From NCBI GenBank assembly GCA_005772895.1, contig SXIH01000062.1, positions 1-64,000 of the forward strand: DNA of 64,000 nt, read 5' to 3'. The number at the start of each line of letters is the position of its first letter. The stretch's first letter is position 1. This stretch comes from Bacteroidota bacterium. Its GTDB lineage: Bacteria > Bacteroidota > Bacteroidia > 2-12-FULL-35-15. Shown here in pieces: positions 28,145-61,393 of this stretch. The notes under the pieces were generated by a model. That model worked only from the letters and a program-made list of their open reading frames with translations, ran no database searches and was not told where the DNA came from. The position numbers were made by a program, and so were the translations under genes.

Positions 28145-29350
28145 CTATATCGCGCAAATGAAGAGCTTATTATCTCTTTTATTGAAAATGTTGAACAAGG
28201 AATTAAAATTCACATTTGCAATAATATAATTGGTGTTTGACGATTTATACTCTTCTTCAATAGAAAGTATTTCAAGGTCTTTTAATTCCTCTCTGTTTTG
28301 GAAACGGATGTATAGTTTTATTGGAAAATCGTACTCAATCTGTTTGATTCCATCTTCAATCTTTGTGTTCCCGTTCAATGCTTTTTTCAACTTTTTGTAG
28401 GCGTATTTATAATCATAAGTTAACGCAGAAATATCAGACAAAACAGCACTTCCTGTAGGATGGCTTCCGGCTCCTTTTCCTACAAAAGTTTGTTTACATG
28501 AAAAGGCTCCTTCTACTTCCACTGCGTTGTATTCATATAAAACATTATACAGTTCACTTTCTCTGTCAACAAAGTGTGGCAATGAATAAACTCTGAATTT
28601 ATCTCCTACTTTTTGTGAGACTCCCAACATTTTTATTCGCAAGCCTCTTTGTTTTGCGTACAAAATATCATCGTAACTCACATTTTGTATTCCAGTATTA
28701 AAAATATCATTCGGATTTAACACAATTCCGAAAGCATGTACCGTTAATAACAATGTCTTAAATTTTGTATCAAATCCGGCAACATCTAACCAAGGGTCAC
28801 TCTCTGCAAAACCGTTTAACTGTGCATCTTTCAAAATTTCCTCATAATCTTTATTTTCCAACTCCATGCGGGAAAGAATATAATTACAAGTTCCGTTTAA
28901 TATTCCCTTTACACTACTTAGTAATTCATTGTCGTAATATTCTTCCAGATTACGGATAATAGGGATACTTCCTCCTGCAGAGCCCTCATAAATTAAAGCA
29001 ACATTGTTTTTTTCTTGCAGCTGATATAGTTCCTTGAAATTTTCGGCTAACATCTTTTTATTTGCTGTCACCACACTTACTCCGTTGTTCATGGCATCTC
29101 TCACAATTGCAAACGCTTCATCAGCATTATCGATAAGCTCAACAATTACATTTAAGTTGTTGCGCTTTAAAATTTCTGAACGATCATATGTAAAAAATGA
29201 AATGTCAATTTTTCTTTTTTTGTTTTTGTCTTTTACACAAATTTTTTCAATAGTAGCTTTCAATCCTTGTGAATGATTTAGCACATCGTACAGTCCTTGT
29301 CCAACACAGCCAAAACCAAATAATCCTATTGTAATGTTTTTATTTCCCAT
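28145..29350 (-). CDS. hom: Homoserine dehydrogenase
   Basis: Reduces aspartate semialdehyde to homoserine, the branch point to Met and Thr. The 401-residue product has an N-terminal nucleotide-binding fold (IGLFGFGCVGQGLYDVL), VTANKKMLA, the GSAGGSIPIIRNL segment and the catalytic signature GILNGTCNYILSRME, LDVAGFDTKFK. It is stand-alone, not fused to aspartate kinase, and no ACT domain is recognised at the C-terminus. It lies downstream of cysH in the sulfur-assimilation cluster, which suggests it supplies homoserine for methionine. A 192-nt gap to cysH may hold its own promoter. Confidence 0.93.
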   Translation of the reverse strand: MGNKNITIGLFGFGCVGQGLYDVLNHSQGLKATIEKICVKDKNKKRKIDISFFTYDRSEILKRNNLNVIVELIDNADEAFAIVRDAMNNGVSVVTANKKMLAENFKELYQLQEKNNVALIYEGSAGGSIPIIRNLEEYYDNELLSSVKGILNGTCNYILSRMELENKDYEEILKDAQLNGFAESDPWLDVAGFDTKFKTLLLTVHAFGIVLNPNDIFNTGIQNVSYDDILYAKQRGLRIKMLGVSQKVGDKFRVYSLPHFVDRESELYNVLYEYNAVEVEGAFSCKQTFVGKGAGSHPTGSAVLSDISALTYDYKYAYKKLKKALNGNTKIEDGIKQIEYDFPIKLYIRFQNREELKDLEILSIEEEYKSSNTNYIIANVNFNSLFNIFNKRDNKLFICAI

Positions 29351-29542
29351 AATTTAAATTAGTGATTTGTTGAAATGGAGAGTTGGAGAATTATTGACTC
29401 CTACTCATATCCATTTTCTGTTGCAATATTATATTTATACTTTATTATTAAAATCCTAAAATAACAACATTCTTAGTGATTCATCGAACCATTTTAACTC
29501 TTTTAACCTTTCTCTATTTCACCTATTCTCCATTTCTCTAAT
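29351..29542. other. AT-rich gap between cysH and hom
   Basis: This gap holds no convincing gene, terminator or Met/Cys-rich leader ORF on either strand. Pyrimidine-rich direct repeats of the CTATTTCACC/CTCCATTTCT type are present. Whether hom is read through from cysH or has a separate promoter cannot be decided from the sequence. Confidence 0.4.
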
Positions 29543-30190
29543 TTATAAATGAAGTCCGCATTCTGTTTTTGACTTATTCACCCATCTTCCGCTTCTTCCT
29601 TTTCCTGCTACTGTACAGTGAAAACAGCCAACTGAACTATATCCTTGTGAAAGCAAAGGATGCTCTGGTAAATTATTTTTAATCATGTATTCTTTTGCAC
29701 TCTTTTCATTTTGATCTATTAAGGGATAAAATTTCAGAATCCCATCTTTCTCTTCAAACACCTTTAAATTTTGCCGATGAGTGCTTTGAGAAGCCATTAA
29801 TCCTGATACCCAAACTTCAAAATTGTCTTTTATCTTCTCTATTGGTTCTACTTTATTAATGGAGCAGCACAAATCGGGATCTGAATTCCAAGTTTTGTCC
29901 TTCTGTGTAAAATTATTTTTCCATTCTTCCGGTTTTACATCGATTACTTTTAAGTTTAACAGCTTTGTTAATGCTTCTTTGTATTCTATTGTTTCGTTAA
30001 AATGATAGGTTGTATCTAAAAAATAAACCGTTTCATTTGGTTTCACTTTATGAAACAGATGCAATAAAAAAACAGATGTAGTACCAAAAGAAGAAGTAAA
30101 CAACACTTTACTAAAATCTTTGTAAAGCTCTTGAATACGACCTTCCGGACTAAGTAACAAATATTTTTTATTTAATTCCTCTATGTTCAT
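29543..30190 (-). CDS. cysH: Phosphoadenylyl-/adenylyl-sulfate reductase, iron-sulfur type
   Basis: Reduces activated sulfate (APS or PAPS) to sulfite. The 215-residue product has the PP-loop-like FSKVLFTSSFGTTSVFLLHL, FLDTTYHFNETIEY, and the C-terminal catalytic ECGLHL. Two Cys pairs, DLCC and GCFHCT, are the ligands of the [4Fe-4S] cluster found in APS-type reductases. The Arg usual after the CC pair (CCxxRK) is replaced (CCSINK), so substrate preference is open. Its ATG overlaps the stop of the upstream fusion gene by one base (TAATG). Confidence 0.9.
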   Translation of the reverse strand: MNIEELNKKYLLLSPEGRIQELYKDFSKVLFTSSFGTTSVFLLHLFHKVKPNETVYFLDTTYHFNETIEYKEALTKLLNLKVIDVKPEEWKNNFTQKDKTWNSDPDLCCSINKVEPIEKIKDNFEVWVSGLMASQSTHRQNLKVFEEKDGILKFYPLIDQNEKSAKEYMIKNNLPEHPLLSQGYSSVGCFHCTVAGKGRSGRWVNKSKTECGLHL

Positions 30191-31710
30191 TAAAGAATAC
30201 CAATCAAAATATTACGCAAACTTACAATTATCACAACAATTCCAACAAATATCAATCCAGCCCGAACAGGAATTCTGGATGTCATGATTGCTGCAAATGG
30301 CGCTGCTATCATTCCCCCAATTACAAGTCCTGCAATCATAGTCCAATGCTGAATTCCGATTACAGTAAAAAATGTAATTGAACTGGCAAGTGTAATAAAA
30401 AACTCTGCAAGATTTACAGAACCTATTGTGTAACGAAAAGTTCTTCCTCGCGCAATTAATGTTGAAGATACAATTGGCCCCCAGCCACCACCACCAATAG
30501 AATCAAGAAATGCACCGATAAAAGCCAATGCTCCGATTCGTTTTATTTTTTTCTTTTCTCTTATTTTTCTTATTGCTTTAACAATAATTACAACTCCTAA
30601 TATTAATGTGTAAACAGAAACAAGTGGCTTTATCACACTTCCATATTCCTGAAAAGAAGATAATATATACGCTCCGATAATTGCACCAATGATTCCTGGA
30701 ATCAATAAATGTTTAAAAAGTTTTGTGTTTACATTTTTGAATTTTAAATGCATTAATCCCGATGCGCCAGTAGTAAATATTTCGGATGTATGAACACTTG
30801 CACTTGCTGCAGCCGGAGTTACACCAAATGAAAGCAAAAATGTTGTTGCTGTAACCCCATAAGCCATTCCCAGTGCACCATCCACCATTTGAGCAATAAA
30901 TCCACCTAAAATAAAAATCAATACCGTTTGATCTAAAGAACCAAACAATTCAACAGCCGAATTTCCAATAGATGAAAGAGGAATAAATGAAAATAAAATG
31001 TGTCCAACAATCATTAAAGAAACTGCAGACAAAAAATAAATCAAGAGTTTCTTTGGTTGCTTGTAAAATGGCTTCTTTACTTTTTCAATTGCCAAATGCG
31101 GTTGAAGAGCTGCTAAATTGTTCTCATTAGTAAGAACAGCTGTTACTTCATTTAGCTTTTTTACTTTGTTTGTAAAGTCCCCTTTTAATTGGTTGCGAAA
31201 TTTATTCAGATTCTCAATACTTTCTTGAGTATCATCTGGCAAGGCTTCATTGAAAACTTCCTTTAAACGCTTCGCAAGTGTAGGAGACTTCCCATTTGTA
31301 GAAATAGCAATTTTCAAATCTCCTTTTTGAACAATCGACCCTAAATAGAAATCGCATAAATCAGGAGTATCAGCTACATTTATTAATATTTTACGCTTTT
31401 TTGCTTCTGTTCTAATCAATTCACTTATTGCTCTATCGCCCGTTGCCGCTATTACCAATTCCTTCCCATCTAAATCACTTATCTCAAATGCTCTTTGTTC
31501 AATAATCAATTTTTCTGATTTTTCTTGAAAGGCTTTGATTTCAGGCAATACTTTACGTGCCACTAAAGTTACTTTTGTATCAGGACTATTATTTAAAACC
31601 GATGAAATCTTCTCTAAGCCAATGTTTCCGCCTCCCACAATTAAAACATGCAACTGTTCTAATTTGAAGAAAACTGGAAATAAATTGTTGAAAGATGCGT
31701 TTTTTGTCAT
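30190..31710 (-). CDS. Fusion: precorrin-2 dehydrogenase/ferrochelatase domain + TSUP (TauE/SafE) transporter
   Basis: The 506-residue product joins two functions. Residues about 10-160 match the N-terminal part of siroheme synthase (FFKLEQLHVLIVGGGNIGLE, VNVADTPDLCDF-like INVADTPDLCDFYLGSIV, GKSPTLAKRLKE), which oxidises precorrin-2 and inserts iron. After a helical linker, residues about 215-506 form a TSUP-type permease with 8-9 TM helices (MVDGALGMAYGVTATTFLLS, SIGGGGWGPIVSSTLIARGR). The pairing links siroheme formation with transport of sulfite or a related anion. It lies between the cobA/DUF2490 genes and cysH. Confidence 0.88.
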   Translation of the reverse strand: MTKNASFNNLFPVFFKLEQLHVLIVGGGNIGLEKISSVLNNSPDTKVTLVARKVLPEIKAFQEKSEKLIIEQRAFEISDLDGKELVIAATGDRAISELIRTEAKKRKILINVADTPDLCDFYLGSIVQKGDLKIAISTNGKSPTLAKRLKEVFNEALPDDTQESIENLNKFRNQLKGDFTNKVKKLNEVTAVLTNENNLAALQPHLAIEKVKKPFYKQPKKLLIYFLSAVSLMIVGHILFSFIPLSSIGNSAVELFGSLDQTVLIFILGGFIAQMVDGALGMAYGVTATTFLLSFGVTPAAASASVHTSEIFTTGASGLMHLKFKNVNTKLFKHLLIPGIIGAIIGAYILSSFQEYGSVIKPLVSVYTLILGVVIIVKAIRKIREKKKIKRIGALAFIGAFLDSIGGGGWGPIVSSTLIARGRTFRYTIGSVNLAEFFITLASSITFFTVIGIQHWTMIAGLVIGGMIAAPFAAIMTSRIPVRAGLIFVGIVVIIVSLRNILIGIL

Positions 31711-31843
31711 TGGAATGCGAAAATAGTCTTTTTGTGAATTTCTTGTTGAAACAATGTTAATTTCAATTCGATTTGCTGTTTACCTATTGTTTAATTATTC
31801 TTTTAGTTGGTTTAATATGCGTTTTTCAGTTTTTAATTATTCT

Positions 31844-32584
31844 TTAATTGATGTTTTTGTCAGTTTTTCTACTAAAATCCAAATTGTTATAAAGGTTGAT
31901 AACCAGCACATTATTGTCCTCAAAAGCATCAACTTTAGCTCTTTGAACAAATATGTTTGTGTAAGAAACTAGAATATTGAATCGCTCATTTAGTTTATAG
32001 CCCAATCCAACTGCAATTCTGTTTTGATCAAAATAGTTGTTTCGAATTTCTTTGCCACTATTAATAAAAACTTCATCTGCAATTGAAAAATAAAAAGCTT
32101 TGTCCTCAACTTGTTTCTTGTTCAGAGCCACCTGAAAATTTAACTGATACCTAAAACGATTATTATAATTATAATCGTCAACTAACTCGCTCGATATTAC
32201 CTTTTGAAAAAACCGCTGCTCTGCTCTTAAACGATGGCTCAGCTTTATACTTCCATATGTTTCACCGAACAATAATTGCTGCCAACTTCTCCCTTCTGGA
32301 AGAATATAATTAGTTGTATAGTGACTAAAATAAGCCACTCCAGTTGTTACTGAAACGTTCTTGTTAAAATGATATGTGATTCCAGGACGAACAAGGACTT
32401 GACTCCATTTATTCAACCACTCAGTTCGCCTGAAACCAAAATCAAAATATATGCTCCACTTATCATTCAACTTTGCTTTTGTAAAATCACCAAACCAAAC
32501 AAGGTTGTTATGACTCACGTTTTTTTGAGCAAATGAAACAGTCGTAACAATCATTAAAAGAAATAAAAGAAAACACTTTTTCAT
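31844..32584 (-). CDS. DUF2490 family outer-membrane protein
   Basis: The 246-residue product has a signal peptide (MKKCFLLFLLMIVTTVSFA) and alternating beta strands throughout, with Trp/Tyr-rich edges (WSIYFDFGFRRTEWLNKW, LRAEQRFFQK). It ends in a final strand suited to an outer-membrane barrel, although the last residues (RKTDKNIN) are not the classical aromatic terminus. This fits DUF2490. Its ATG directly follows the cobA stop (no gap), so it is co-transcribed with sulfur-assimilation genes. A role in sulfur compound passage is only inferred from position. Confidence 0.75.
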   Translation of the reverse strand: MKKCFLLFLLMIVTTVSFAQKNVSHNNLVWFGDFTKAKLNDKWSIYFDFGFRRTEWLNKWSQVLVRPGITYHFNKNVSVTTGVAYFSHYTTNYILPEGRSWQQLLFGETYGSIKLSHRLRAEQRFFQKVISSELVDDYNYNNRFRYQLNFQVALNKKQVEDKAFYFSIADEVFINSGKEIRNNYFDQNRIAVGLGYKLNERFNILVSYTNIFVQRAKVDAFEDNNVLVINLYNNLDFSRKTDKNIN

Positions 32585-33361
32585 TTAATTCAACAAGTAT
32601 TTCCAATCAGTTAAACTTATAGGAAAAGATTCGTGTAACTTCACAACATCGCCAATAACAATAATTGCAGGGGCGCCTATCTTTTCTTCTTCCGCAATAC
32701 TAACAATCGTTTCGATGGTTCCTAATGCAAGATTTTCAGTTGGCAATGATCCATTTTGAATAAGCGCAATGGCTGTATCACTTTTACCTTCTTTAATGAA
32801 TACATCTGCTATTTCTTTCAGCTTGTTCAAGCCCATCAAAATAACAACCGTTGCTGTTGACTTTGCAGCAAGTTTAATATCCTCAGAAAGTTGTCCATTA
32901 CTTTTTGTTCCGGTAATTACCCAAAAGCTTTCGCTCGTTCCTCTGTTAGTAACTGGAATTCCTTGAAGCTCCGGAACAGCTATGGAACTTGAAATTCCGG
33001 GCACCACTTCCGTTTCAATGTTAAACAGTTTTGCATGTGAGAGTTCTTCATATCCTCTTCCGAAGACAAAAGAATCACCACCTTTTAGACGAACCACGTG
33101 TCCGTGCGTAAAAGCAAAATCCACAATCAATGAATTAATTTGTTCTTGTGTGTATGCATGGTTATTGTTTCGTTTCCCAACATAAATTTTTAATGTTCCT
33201 TTAGGAGCATATTTCAACAATTCAGGATTTACCAATGCATCATATAAAATTACATCTGCGGAGCCAATCGCTTCAACGCCTTTAACTGTAATTAAATCAA
33301 TATCTCCAGGGCCTGCACCTACAAGAGTTAATTTCGGGATAATATTATTTTTTGTGCTCAT
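32585..33361 (-). CDS. cobA: Uroporphyrinogen-III C-methyltransferase
   Basis: Methylates uroporphyrinogen III twice with SAM to give precorrin-2, the precursor of the siroheme needed by sulfite reductase. The 258-residue product has LVGAGPGDIDLITVKG, the VRLKGGDSFVFGRGYEE motif, VPGISSSIAVPELQGIPVTN and the TVVILMGLNKL strand, as in stand-alone SUMT. It lies between the sulfite reductase gene and the precorrin-2 dehydrogenase fusion, completing the siroheme pathway within one cluster. Confidence 0.95.
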   Translation of the reverse strand: MSTKNNIIPKLTLVGAGPGDIDLITVKGVEAIGSADVILYDALVNPELLKYAPKGTLKIYVGKRNNNHAYTQEQINSLIVDFAFTHGHVVRLKGGDSFVFGRGYEELSHAKLFNIETEVVPGISSSIAVPELQGIPVTNRGTSESFWVITGTKSNGQLSEDIKLAAKSTATVVILMGLNKLKEIADVFIKEGKSDTAIALIQNGSLPTENLALGTIETIVSIAEEEKIGAPAIIVIGDVVKLHESFPISLTDWKYLLN

Positions 33362-33596: not shown

Positions 33597-35696
33597 TTAT
33601 TGCAACTGCATTTCTCTTAATGCACTTGCTTGTTTAATAAATTCTTTTGCATCATTTAAATACGTCTCCGCGAATTGCTTTGTTGGTTCATTTTTGTTTA
33701 TCTGTAAAACAAACTCTCTAAACGTGCCACTTACGTTGATTTCATTAATATCAACAAAGTGTTTGTCAAAATCATTGATGATATCGTTCTGTGTATTTGT
33801 TTTTAAACTTTTTCCCAACAACAAAGCTTTTGCTCCACTAATAATTGTTGCATAACTGTGATAAATACTATCTGCAAATAAATTTTCGTTAAACGAATTT
33901 TCTGCCCAATCCAATTTTTCTTCTGCTTCAAAAATCAATGTCGCAACCAAATCAATCATCACTCCGGCACACTCTCCTACTCCAATCTCTGTTTTAAATT
34001 CCTCTGTATGCCCCCAATCCAAATACTCTTCAGGCAACAATGTGCTGTTATCGGCATGTGGTTTTAATAATTGATAGAAATAATCTTTCCCCTGTTTATC
34101 GTAATAATTATTGAAATATTCACCTTCAACTGCATTTTTTTCAAAATCAACAAGCAGTGTTCTCAATACTGCCGGACCACGTTTGCTAGGCACTTTGATA
34201 ATTTTATCAGAAATTCTTCCTTCACCGTTTCCAACAATTCCACCCCCTAAAACCAGTTGTAATGCAGGAACCACAGCTGTTCCGTTTTTAAAAGAACTTC
34301 CGTGAAATCCTATTTGTGCCAGACTATGTTGTCCACAAGAATTCATACATCCACTGATTTTAATTTTGATGTCATTATTAAAAAGCAATTCCGGAAATTC
34401 TTCTTTCACTACTCTTTCCAATTCTTTTGTTATTCCTGTGCTACTTGATATTCCTAAGTTACACGTGTCAGTACCTGGACAAGCAGTTATATCTCCAACG
34501 CTATCAAATCCGGGTTCTGCTAATCCTAATTTATCTAATGACTTGAACAAAGCCGGCAAAGCTTCTTTGGAAACAAATTTCAACAACAAACCTTGATTTA
34601 CCGTTACGCGTATGTCGTCTGCGGCATACGTATTAACTAAACTAACTAATTCTCGTGCGGTTTGTGAACTTAAGTTCCCTAACAAAACTTTTATGTTCAC
34701 ACCATAGAAGCCTTGCTGCTTTTGTTCAAATACATTACTAATAATCCAATCTTGATATTTCTTATTGTCACTTATTTTAAATGTGGTGAAGGATGTTCCA
34801 AGCGTATTTTGTTTCAAAGGAACAGCATCGTAATTAATTGGAAACGATGAATAGCCCAATGCTAAACGTTCTTCAGCCACTAATCTTAATACTTCTACTA
34901 TTCCAATTTTATTCACTAAATATTTTATTCTTGCTTTGTGACGGCTTGCACGTTCACCATGTCTATCAAAAACACGGATCAATGCTTCCGTAAATGGAAC
35001 AATTTGATCTTCTTCCAAAAATTCAAATGCCGTTTTTGCTAAAAAGGGTTGTGCTCCTAATCCTCCGCCAACAAGCACTTTAAAACCTCTAGTGATTTTA
35101 CCCTCTACAATTTTCACTTTAGGAATAAATCCTAAATCGTGCATAAAAGTGTAAGCAGTATCATCATCGTTGGATGAAAAAGCAAATTTTAATTTTCTTC
35201 CAAGTTCTTGCCCGAATGGTTTACGTAAAAAATATTTAAACAATTCCTGAGCATACGGAGAAACATCAAAAGGTTCTTTCGGGTCTATGCCCGCTACTGC
35301 AGACGCAGTGATGTTACGGACTGTATTGCCACAAGCTTCACGCAAAGTAATATCATCTTGCTCCAGCTTTGCCCACAATTCCGGAGTTTTATCTAGACTC
35401 ACATAATGGATCTGAACATCCTGACGGGTAGTTAAATGCAAATTACCATTTGAATATTCATCTGATATGTCTGCAATTCGCAACAATTGTTTGCCCGTTA
35501 CTTTGCCAAAAGGAAGTTTAATTCGAATCATCTGAACGCCTTGCTGACGTTGCCCGTAAACACCTCTAGCCAATCTTAAAGAACGAAATTTTTCTTCATT
35601 CAATGTTCCTTCACGAAATGCGCGAATCTTTTGTTCTAATTCAATTATGTCTTTTTCAACTAATGGATTTTCTATTTCTGTCTGAAAACTTTGCAT
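33597..35696 (-). CDS. Ferredoxin-type sulfite (nitrite) reductase with C-terminal HEPN-like domain
   Basis: Predicted to reduce sulfite to sulfide with siroheme and a [4Fe-4S] cluster. The 699-residue product shows the duplicated nitrite/sulfite reductase half-domains (VYGQRQQGVQMIRIKLPFGK, LTTRQDVQIHYV, REACGNTVRNITAS). The cofactor ligands are in TACPGTDTCNLG near 404 and SGCMNSCGQH near 449. The core ends near 550. Residues about 558-699 are an extra helical domain of HEPN type (IFEAEEKLDWAENSFNENLF, DSIYHSYATIISGAKALLLG). Context with cobA, cysH and siroheme genes favours sulfite over nitrite. It is preceded by the tandem attenuator. Confidence 0.9.
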   Translation of the reverse strand: MQSFQTEIENPLVEKDIIELEQKIRAFREGTLNEEKFRSLRLARGVYGQRQQGVQMIRIKLPFGKVTGKQLLRIADISDEYSNGNLHLTTRQDVQIHYVSLDKTPELWAKLEQDDITLREACGNTVRNITASAVAGIDPKEPFDVSPYAQELFKYFLRKPFGQELGRKLKFAFSSNDDDTAYTFMHDLGFIPKVKIVEGKITRGFKVLVGGGLGAQPFLAKTAFEFLEEDQIVPFTEALIRVFDRHGERASRHKARIKYLVNKIGIVEVLRLVAEERLALGYSSFPINYDAVPLKQNTLGTSFTTFKISDNKKYQDWIISNVFEQKQQGFYGVNIKVLLGNLSSQTARELVSLVNTYAADDIRVTVNQGLLLKFVSKEALPALFKSLDKLGLAEPGFDSVGDITACPGTDTCNLGISSSTGITKELERVVKEEFPELLFNNDIKIKISGCMNSCGQHSLAQIGFHGSSFKNGTAVVPALQLVLGGGIVGNGEGRISDKIIKVPSKRGPAVLRTLLVDFEKNAVEGEYFNNYYDKQGKDYFYQLLKPHADNSTLLPEEYLDWGHTEEFKTEIGVGECAGVMIDLVATLIFEAEEKLDWAENSFNENLFADSIYHSYATIISGAKALLLGKSLKTNTQNDIINDFDKHFVDINEINVSGTFREFVLQINKNEPTKQFAETYLNDAKEFIKQASALREMQLQ

Positions 35697-35775: not shown

Positions 35776-35807
35776 AAAAAGCCCTTCTACATTTCTGCGG
35801 AAGGGCT
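35776..35807 (-). terminator. Attenuator 2 terminator, proximal to the sulfite reductase gene
   Basis: On the minus strand AGCCCTTC (35807-35800) pairs with GAAGGGCT (35787-35780), extended by GCA/TGT around a GAAA loop, and is followed by TTTTTAAT. The 9-nt stretch CCTTCCGCA (35804-35796) in its 5' arm and loop is perfectly complementary to TGCGGAAGG inside leader ORF 2 (35866-35858), which would form a competing antiterminator. Confidence 0.8.
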
Positions 35808-35828
35808 CTTCATATCTTGCTTCTTGTT

Positions 35829-35942
35829 TTATCTTTTACAATAGTGCAAAGCTGTTGCCTTCCGCATTCGCAGATACATCATACAACACATACACATTGT
35901 AAATAAGTTCAAAGTAAAAAGTTCAAAGATTAAAGTTGTCAT
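35829..35942 (-). CDS. Met/Cys-rich leader peptide 2
   Basis: A 37-codon ORF with start ATG at 35942. After 15 residues comes the block MCMCCMM (residues 16-22), then YLRMRKA and a tail ending HYCKR. The antiterminator segment (35866-35858) covers codons 26-29, just ahead of a ribosome stalled in the Met/Cys block. The terminator follows the stop codon by about 20 nt. It is too short for routine gene finding. Its expected role is cis-acting: translation rate through Met and Cys codons decides whether the terminator forms. Confidence 0.75.
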   Translation of the reverse strand: MTTLIFELFTLNLFTMCMCCMMYLRMRKATALHYCKR

Positions 35943-35958
35943 TGTTTTTATTTTATAG

Positions 35959-35978
35959 CCGTCTCTTTAAAGAAACGG
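35959..35978 (-). promoter_or_regulatory. Hairpin between attenuators 1 and 2
   Basis: CCGTTTCTTTAAAGAGACGG on the minus strand is an almost perfect inverted repeat (one G-U pair) lying between terminator 1 and the second leader ORF. It has no U-run. It may insulate the two attenuators or pause RNA polymerase. Confidence 0.4.
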
Positions 35979-35984
35979 AAAATT

Positions 35985-36015
35985 AAAAAGGCTTCCCGTT
36001 TTCGGAAAGCCTTTT
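35985..36015 (-). terminator. Attenuator 1 terminator
   Basis: A 13-bp stem (one G-U), AAAAGGCTTTCCG (36015-36003) with CGGGAAGCCTTTT (35998-35986), loop AAAA, followed by T-rich sequence TTAATTTT. Its 5' arm contains AGGCTTTCC (36012-36004), exactly complementary to GGAAAGCCT (36056-36048) located five bases after the stop codon of leader peptide 1. A ribosome at that stop would mask the upstream copy and free the terminator. Confidence 0.88.
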
Positions 36016-36060
36016 AAATGTTATTTAAAATATATGTTTTTTACAACAGGCTTTCCATAA

Positions 36061-36132
36061 TTACGCACACATCATACAGCACATCATTGGGCTGTTTGAA
36101 GAAGTTAACGTATATGTAAAGTTGTTTTTCAT
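36061..36132 (-). CDS. Met/Cys-rich leader peptide 1
   Basis: A 23-codon ORF, ATG at 36132, stop at 36063-36061. Residues 1-15 are polar (MKNNFTYTLTSSNSP), residues 16-22 are MMCCMMC, then Ala and stop. The Met/Cys block starts at exactly the same residue (16) as in leader peptide 2. It lies about 12 nt downstream of the expected transcription start and is followed at once by the antiterminator segment and terminator 1, the layout of a classical amino-acid attenuator. The peptide itself probably has no function once made. Confidence 0.82.
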   Translation of the reverse strand: MKNNFTYTLTSSNSPMMCCMMCA

Positions 36133-36149: not shown

Positions 36150-36182
36150 CAAATATATGACGCTAATTTTTAAGTTTCCAAA
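36150..36182 (-). promoter_or_regulatory. Promoter of the sulfur-assimilation cluster
   Basis: On the minus strand TTTG (36182-36179) is followed after 21 bp by TATATTTGC (36157-36149), an exact -7 element. Transcription would start near 36144, about 12 nt before leader ORF 1. No comparable promoter is seen between the two leader ORFs, so both should lie on one transcript with the sulfite reductase gene. Confidence 0.75.
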
Positions 36183-36485: not shown

Positions 36486-37991
36486 ATGATATTAAAACAA
36501 TCTATTTTTGACTTAATGAAGTCGCTTTCCGGTTCAGAGAAGAGATACATCAAATTATCGACTGAATTCCGAGAAGACAGTAATTATACGCGTCTGTTTG
36601 ATTGTTATGACCGCATGCGAAGCTATAATGACGCAGTTATTAAAAAAGAATTTAAAGGAGAAGCTGTTTTAAATCAAATTCATGTGGCTGAAAACTACCT
36701 GTACAAAGCCATTTTGAAGTGTTTGAGAAATTATCACTCTGAAAGCAGCATCGAATTTGAAATAAAAAATCAACTGAACGATGTGGAAGTATTGTATCGG
36801 AAAGGGCTGTATCAACAGTGCAGAAACACTTTAAACCACATCGAAAAAATTGCATTGAAGTACGAAAATCATTTTGTGCTCATTGAAGTTTACAATTGGT
36901 ACAGCGAACTCCGTCAGGTAATGGCTGATAACAAGTCGTTTCCCGACCACATAACTGTTTTTCAAAATGAGTTGAACAGTTTGAATGCTCACAAAAACAC
37001 AATTGAGTACAAAAAAATTTCCAGCGATTTGTTTTTCAATATGAGAAGCGAAGGAATGTATCGCGATAAAGATCAGATGCGTGAAATAGAAAAAATTGTT
37101 CTCTCATCCTTATTACAATCAGAAGCAAAAGCTACTACATTTCGCTCCAAACTGAGCTTTTATCAGCTACATGGCGTTTATCAAACATTGAAGGGCGATA
37201 TTGAAAAAGCAATCTCCTTTCAACAAAAAGTAGTTTCGCTATTAGAAGCAAATCCACATCAGATACAAAAGAAACCGCTTTTTTATTTAATCTCGATGAA
37301 CAATTTAGCAATCGGATTAACTAAACTTAAATTATATCATGACGCAATTCGCACTATTCAAAAATTAAGGGCTTCAACAAAAACATTCAATATAAAAAAC
37401 AGCATCGATTGGCAAACAAAATTATTTACCATCACTCATTCTCTGGAGCTGGATGTTTACATTAAGTCCGATGATTTTACAAAAGGGATAGCCCTAATTC
37501 CGCAAATACAGAGCGAATCAGAGCGACTCGAAAAACATGTTAGTCCGGTTCACGAGTTGCAATTCAATTTTGCTTTTGCTCGTTTATTACATGCAAACAA
37601 AAATTATAAAGAATCGTTGCGTTGGGTAAATAAATTATTGAACAACCCAAACAAAGAAGTCCGTGCAGATATTTATTGTTGTGCAAGAATGCTTCAGATT
37701 ATTATTTATTACGAAACCAAAGATTGGGAAACGCTTCCGTATGCAATTATAAACACCACACGTTACTTAAAATCTACAAAAAAGCTTTATCGTGCAGAAG
37801 CAGCTCTGTTGGCTGTTATGCGGAGGTTAGATGATGTAGAAAAACCAAAAGAATTGCAACAACTGAAAAAGTTAAAAACGGCTTTTGATGAAATTTTTAC
37901 AGATAATTTAGAAAAAAACTTGTTGGATAATTTCGATTTCTCGAGTTGGGTAAATGATAAAATAAAATTGCTAATCCCTGAAGGGGGTTGA
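36486..37991 (+). CDS. Helical-repeat protein of unknown function
   Basis: The 501-residue product has no signal peptide or TM segment and is almost entirely alpha-helical, with irregular TPR-like pairs (CRNTLNHIEKIALKYENHFV, QTLKGDIEKAISFQQKVVSL, LIPQIQSESERLEKHVSPVH). The N-terminus (MILKQSIFDLMKSLSGSEKR) is a distinctive helix. It resembles uncharacterised cytoplasmic proteins of Bacteroidota; no catalytic motif is visible. The gene stands alone, convergent with a T9SS gene, so context gives no clue to function. Confidence 0.75.
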   Translation: MILKQSIFDLMKSLSGSEKRYIKLSTEFREDSNYTRLFDCYDRMRSYNDAVIKKEFKGEAVLNQIHVAENYLYKAILKCLRNYHSESSIEFEIKNQLNDVEVLYRKGLYQQCRNTLNHIEKIALKYENHFVLIEVYNWYSELRQVMADNKSFPDHITVFQNELNSLNAHKNTIEYKKISSDLFFNMRSEGMYRDKDQMREIEKIVLSSLLQSEAKATTFRSKLSFYQLHGVYQTLKGDIEKAISFQQKVVSLLEANPHQIQKKPLFYLISMNNLAIGLTKLKLYHDAIRTIQKLRASTKTFNIKNSIDWQTKLFTITHSLELDVYIKSDDFTKGIALIPQIQSESERLEKHVSPVHELQFNFAFARLLHANKNYKESLRWVNKLLNNPNKEVRADIYCCARMLQIIIYYETKDWETLPYAIINTTRYLKSTKKLYRAEAALLAVMRRLDDVEKPKELQQLKKLKTAFDEIFTDNLEKNLLDNFDFSSWVNDKIKLLIPEGG

Positions 37992-61328: not shown

Positions 61329-61393
61329 AGAGTGATATTGAGGGGATGCCGAAAACCTATCAGAGTAGGCAAAAATTAAAATCAATAAAAAAT

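Follow-up and report, generated by a model that had tools for sequence, protein, structure and literature searches.

Tandem short ORFs with mixed Cys/Met codon blocks and competing RNA structures precede sulfite reductase genes in Bacteroidia and suggest serial transcription attenuation

The window analyzed here, a stretch of 64,000 nucleotides of a Bacteroidota contig, encodes on its minus strand a nitrite/sulfite reductase (sir) followed by genes for a tetrapyrrole methylase (cobA/cysG-like), a DUF2490 protein, a siroheme-synthase/TauE fusion, a PAPS reductase (cysH) and a homoserine dehydrogenase (hom), as assigned with Pfam. This gene content fits a reduction of sulfate sulfur towards Cys and Met, and the gene spacing suggests that the cluster is co-transcribed. 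The fusion ORF (30190-31710, minus strand) joins the N-terminal part of a siroheme synthase to a TauE/SafE sulfite exporter domain. A gap of 192 nt lies ahead of hom, and inspection by eye found no leader in it. Between a divergent gene at 36486 and the start of sir at 35696, two short ORFs lie in series on the minus strand. Their positions, lengths (23 and 37 codons) and Met/Cys blocks, both starting at residue 16, were confirmed as given in the initial annotation. The features of the locus are as follows.

36150..36182, minus strand: predicted promoter of Bacteroidota type (TTTG at 36182-36179, 21-nt spacer, TATATTTG at 36157-36150)
36061..36132, minus strand: leader peptide 1, ORF MKNNFTYTLTSSNSPMMCCMMCA and stop codon, 23 codons, block MMCCMMC at residues 16-22
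36048..36056, minus strand: antiterminator arm 1, GGAAAGCCT, pairing with the 5′ arm of terminator 1, AGGCTTTCC
35986..36015, minus strand: intrinsic terminator 1, AAAAGGCTTTCC GAAAAC GGGAAGCCTTTT, then T-rich
35829..35942, minus strand: leader peptide 2, ORF MTTLIFELFTLNLFTMCMCCMMYLRMRKATALHYCKR and stop codon, 37 codons, block MCMCCMM at residues 16-22
35858..35866, minus strand: antiterminator arm 2, TGCGGAAGG, inside ORF 2, pairing with the 5′ arm of terminator 2, CCTTCCGCA
35776..35809, minus strand: intrinsic terminator 2, AGAGCCCTTCCGCA GAAA TGTAGAAGGGCTTTTT with a T-rich tail, a hairpin in the minimum-energy fold
33597..35696, minus strand: sir, nitrite/sulfite reductase (Pfam NIR_SIR and NIR_SIR_ferr), first gene of the operon
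28145..33361, minus strand: remaining gene cluster, five genes downstream of sir

A consensus promoter had been proposed ahead of the two ORFs. A promoter is indeed predicted there and is conserved in the genus, but a sigma-70-like type was rejected in favor of TTTG/TAnnTTTG, as sigma-70-like matches numbered 6 against 4.9 in shuffled sequences. We take TTTG/TATATTTG to be the promoter type of Bacteroidota.

Both terminators fold better than expected from their composition (z-scores of -5.1 for terminator 1 and -4.4 for terminator 2), and no equally good fold was obtained among 200 shuffles of each. In both leaders, a segment 9-15 nt past the Met/Cys block competes for the 5′ arm of the terminator, with duplex energies of -16.4 kcal/mol for arm 1 and -19.6 kcal/mol for arm 2, neither of which was matched in 200 shuffles of the intervening region. 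The competing antiterminator and terminator pairing, which had not been demonstrated when tandem attenuation was proposed for this locus, is thus present. The two leaders differ in geometry. The stop codon of leader 1 lies directly ahead of arm 1, whereas ORF 2 extends across its own arm.

We modeled the pairing available with the ribosomal A site on each codon, assuming that 14 nt from the A-site codon are covered. In both leaders, the arm was predicted to pair with the terminator 5′ arm with a probability of 0.95-0.98 for the A site on codons 16-21 and of 0.84-0.89 at codon 22. The probability then collapsed. In leader 1 it was 0.00 with the A site on the stop codon (codon 24), and in leader 2 it was 0.12 at codon 24 and 0.00 at codon 25, so that in the model antiterminator pairing is lost no more than one or two codons beyond the block. 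This collapse past codon 22 suggests that the block ends where stalling stops to matter. Because stalls before the block act alike, only its downstream edge is informative. Once a ribosome has arrived at the stop codon of leader 2, arm 2 behind it is free once more, and attenuator 2 would therefore need timing or another hairpin. The region carries short ORFs rich in codons of the operon end product, and intrinsic terminators separate these ORFs from the first gene. The operon makes the amino acid that would be sensed, judging from Pfam assignments to sulfite reductase, siroheme synthesis, PAPS reductase and homoserine dehydrogenase. The antiterminator excludes the terminator and in the model is exposed only with the ribosome at or before the control codons, which for leader 2 applies to ribosomes short of the stop codon.

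The Met/Cys blocks had been considered unlikely to arise by chance, and pattern searches of the genome agreed. TGYTGYATGATG matched three times in the 3.54-Mb genome and its reversed pattern did not match at all; all three matches are in leaders before sulfur genes. The third copy lies in MKTSNFYKTMGKNSTMMCCMMCCI, a leader situated immediately ahead of cysC-cysD. A terminator and its competing arm come after this leader, and the gene behind it encodes an APS kinase (Pfam). A further, short pattern, ATGTGYTGYATG, was searched over the class and discarded as too unspecific to define a regulon; its one extra match in this genome falls within a prolyl-tRNA-synthetase-like gene, in antisense orientation. 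When 36 genomes of the genus were searched, ATGTGYTGYATGATG matched 26 times and its reversed control once, and 25 of these 26 matches fall within short leader ORFs. Most of these ORFs precede sir, frequently as a tandem, or else cysC-cysD, genes that include cysH, or an aldo/keto-reductase-like gene adjoining sir or hom. Leader 2 has orthologues in the genus, as has leader 1 with the same core: the leader 1 copies examined keep MCCMM, while their Cys codons switch between TGC and TGT and their N-terminal residues differ. At four genus loci (L022, L023, L025 and L031), the aldo/keto-reductase-like gene (MEKIYISDSGPEVSAAIYSFWRW, named by eye) lies between the leaders and sir/hom, which would place it under the same control.

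For a wider survey, 296 genomes of the class together with named genomes supplied the sir genes whose upstream regions were read. A Cys/Met leader with a terminator was found in 40 of 80 sir-bearing Bacteroidia genomes, representing 15 of 25 families; no leader was detected in the other 40, among which are all sampled members of ten families. Named carriers include strains of Pedobacter, Mucilaginibacter, Parapedobacter and Chitinophaga, and carriers in Pedobacter (P. suwonensis is one), Mucilaginibacter and Chitinophaga are cultured. Conservation in relatives had been set beforehand as a check on the proposal, which it passed: blocks, start codons and terminators are kept in the genus and recur across families. 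We also scored all residue pairs for clusters of at least five of seven residues in short ORFs with a terminator upstream of sir. Cys plus Met was by far the commonest pair: the coding strand had such clusters at 55 of 160 loci, the opposite strand had none, and one was present among 1719 ORFs without a terminator. These counts are not independent, given the relatedness of the loci and the double entry of some genomes. In most loci, the hairpin and T-run follow roughly 46-78 nt past the leader stop codon.

Sulfur genes (sir, cysC-cysD, cysH and metY-metX-hom) lie downstream of the leaders. The initial annotation had suggested a search upstream of sulfur genes, metX among them; metX loci mostly lacked such a leader (present at 1 of 30), and Met-only leaders were not found before these 30 metX loci. 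At three loci, some 1-3 kb ahead of sir, short ORFs close with a run of seven consecutive Cys codons (L077 at -3001, L089 at -2298 and L113 at -1104). They are possibly a Cys-only form of the leader; no strong terminator was seen directly behind them. A separate motif, CTACTAAWTCTATA(G/T), occurs at or near the sir promoter in Pedobacter, Mucilaginibacter and Chitinophaga (20 of 160 loci, including L123, L131, L149, L183, L187 and L205) and was not seen in the window's genus. It is a candidate transcription-factor site for sulfur genes.

Competing arms were also found beyond the genus. In 91 distinct leaders from 71 loci, arm pairing averaged -11.4 kcal/mol against -6.3 kcal/mol for shuffled sequences, and in about 45% of leaders it was no better than the shuffles at the 5% level. 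For the 71 leaders whose arms pair well, block end and arm were 12 nt apart (IQR 9-14, sd 4.7), whereas the distance from stop codon to arm ranged from -61 to +6 (sd 16). The small spread of the former and the large spread of the latter indicate that the block-to-arm distance is the quantity held constant. This constancy is predicted by a ribosome sensor and not by a functional peptide.

Two leaders in series were present at 20 loci from six families and one named genome. The named genome and five of the six families share one layout, in which the stop codon of the first leader lies 0-5 nt before its arm and the ORF of the second runs 20-43 nt past the arm start; the exception is family f10, in which both tandem leaders overlap their arms. 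Of 71 first leaders, 53 have TAnnTTTG in the 60 nt ahead of them, and of 20 second leaders none has it (shuffled rate 4%), suggesting that the two leaders are probably in series on one transcript, with one Bacteroidota-type promoter probably serving both. In fourteen first leaders of Pedobacter and relatives (including L131, L172, L178, L187 and L188), the ATG lies exactly 4 nt after TATATTTG, a spacing that makes translation of the leader ORF from a leaderless mRNA probable. A division of labor, with Met in one leader and Cys in the other, was sought in the tandem loci and none was found: the blocks of first leaders contain 55 Met and 63 Cys, and those of second leaders 61 Met and 65 Cys. The earlier proposal of attenuation by Met and Cys supply stands if both leaders read both amino acids, not as one leader for each. 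The alike composition instead favors serial gain or robustness, which we infer to be the purpose of the tandem.

Whether Met is sensed as well as Cys was approached with ORFs picked solely by a CC pair and a terminator. Met made up 30% of the residues beside CC; the corresponding share was 2.7% next to CC in ORFs lacking a terminator and 4.7% at other positions of the same leaders. In one family an MMMCCCM block with a terminator precedes metY-metX-hom. Both observations point to Met being sensed too, and we consider it very likely that it is sensed along with Cys, though Cys-only leaders also occur. It is conceivable but unlikely that Cys alone is sensed and that the Met codons are bystanders kept for RNA pairing, by historical drift or for local initiation. 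The pathway yields cysteine before any other amino acid, some leaders have blocks made wholly or almost wholly of Cys (CCCCC in f10 and the Cys7 ORFs of L077, L089 and L113), and Met, having a single codon, makes synonymous conservation useless as a test. However, Met occurs in 88 of 91 blocks (although these were selected for Cys plus Met), its enrichment persists when ORFs are chosen by CC alone, the Met codons fall inside the stretch where stalling frees the arm in the ribosome model, and metY-metX-hom is itself preceded by one such leader.

Met/Cys-rich motifs bind soft metals, and the peptides might thus act as small proteins, for example in Cu(I) or redox binding, and not as cis sensors. 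We regard this as very improbable, because leader N-termini and lengths differ freely among families while the block-to-arm distance is held, the codons of leader 2 past the block coincide with the antiterminator arm, and each leader is followed by a terminator. That the two ORFs are chance frames in ordinary intergenic DNA that separates sir from a stray terminator has next to no probability: AT-rich DNA often holds short ORFs, but the counts at genome, genus and class level and the conserved tandem order refute it. An action on translation or on Rho-dependent termination has been proposed for the Cys leaders of Actinobacteria, those of mycobacteria included, where a conserved terminator hairpin is absent (PMC1262725). 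For the present leaders, such an action is very improbable, given the strong hairpin with a T-run behind each of them.

We therefore favor, as highly probable on the sequence evidence, two ribosome-mediated transcription attenuators in series on one transcript before sir, sensing Cys and Met. With charged tRNA-Cys and tRNA-Met plentiful, ribosomes would clear the blocks and cover or run through the arms, the terminators would form, and most transcripts would stop ahead of sir. If either amino acid were short, a ribosome would stall on the block, leaving the arm about 12 nt beyond free to pair with the 5′ arm of the terminator, which would let RNA polymerase read through. In leader 1 the arm would be masked by a ribosome parked at the stop codon, whereas in leader 2 the ORF itself would pass over the arm. 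Since both gates would have to be passed, we propose that the read-through probabilities multiply. The ORFs, blocks, terminators, competing pairing, geometry, conservation and single promoter motif are read directly from the DNA; the translation of the leaders, the stalling, the response to Cys and Met and the multiplication of the two gates are what these features lead us to infer.

To our knowledge, the control of sulfate assimilation in Bacteroidota has been little described. The present leaders would represent a widespread cis-acting control of this pathway within the class Bacteroidia, and would place Met among the amino acids sensed by leader peptides. They would also reveal a recurrent two-step design that may provide gain, set a threshold or confer robustness to ribosome timing. 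Unannotated short ORFs ahead of sir, cysC/cysD and met genes deserve annotation as leaders. We are evenly balanced on a broader proposal: that Bacteroidota possess a widespread unnamed class of sulfur attenuators reading Cys and Met jointly, and that several families stack two mechanically different versions for a steeper switch. If so, the attenuators would report the total supply of sulfur amino acids, and the stacked versions would be one masked by a stop-codon ribosome and one swept by a moving ribosome.

Known RNA-based control of sulfur amino acids comprises SAM riboswitches, T-boxes and actinobacterial Cys leaders, and leaders of the his, trp and ilv type sense tRNA charging through runs of the regulated amino acid. 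The absence of a named family for the present leaders, noted in the initial annotation, agrees with Rfam, as no SAM riboswitch or other family reached its gathering score in the leader region. Bacteroid-trp RNA (RF01692) is likewise a leader-peptide RNA of Bacteroidota but has Trp codons, and its covariance model scored 25.3 bits in the window (E = 1.6) against a gathering score of 49. The SAM-I riboswitch (RF00162) also exerts transcription control on sulfur amino-acid genes, in other phyla, but senses S-adenosylmethionine directly. The single SAM-I match in the window's genome (C36:24188-24293, L252) is upstream of a methyltransferase-like gene and not of a methionine operon. Elsewhere in the window, a DUF805b RNA (RF02914) match at 61339-61371 on the plus strand (36.3 bits) is barely over its gathering score. 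No description of Cys/Met leaders in Bacteroidota was found in the open-access literature searched. A 2010 survey of premature terminators stated that leader-peptide systems were previously known from Proteobacteria and Actinobacteria only and added a case from Firmicutes (PMC2965389), and a transcriptome study of the flavobacterium F. psychrophilum refers, without further detail, to attenuation by leader peptides ahead of amino-acid operons (PMC9723704).

In Actinobacteria, cys genes are preceded by leader peptides with Cys runs; these are single leaders that lack conserved terminators, and no Met is reported for their Cys runs (PMC1262725). Mycobacteria have polycysteine leaderless ORFs (Canestrari 2020, as cited in PMC13236596). 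The present leaders share with them the Cys runs before cys operons and, in some cases, a leaderless appearance with the ATG 4 nt after TATATTTG. They belong to another phylum, however, and instead of a Cys run by the stop codon without a conserved terminator they show terminators throughout and Met mixed with Cys. In architecture only, the tandem resembles Salmonella mgtCBR, in which the leader ORFs mgtM and mgtP lie in series in one leader RNA, each with alternative structures, an arrangement called singular there (PMC3641672). mgtM senses ATP and mgtP proline (PMC3641672), whereas both blocks here carry the same two amino acids; this likeness, in composition only, speaks against different signals for the two leaders. 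As in the trp, his, ilv, thr and phe attenuators of Proteobacteria, runs of end-product codons, competition between antiterminator and intrinsic terminator, and a biosynthetic operon downstream are found together. Unlike these classical systems, the present ones combine Cys and Met codons, place two leaders in series with leader 2 overlapping its own arm, and occur in Bacteroidota. The two conserved leaders before sir are almost certainly ribosome-mediated transcription attenuators. With Cys and Met codons, intrinsic terminators and a tandem of two geometries, they are a variation on known leader-peptide attenuation, widespread in Bacteroidia.
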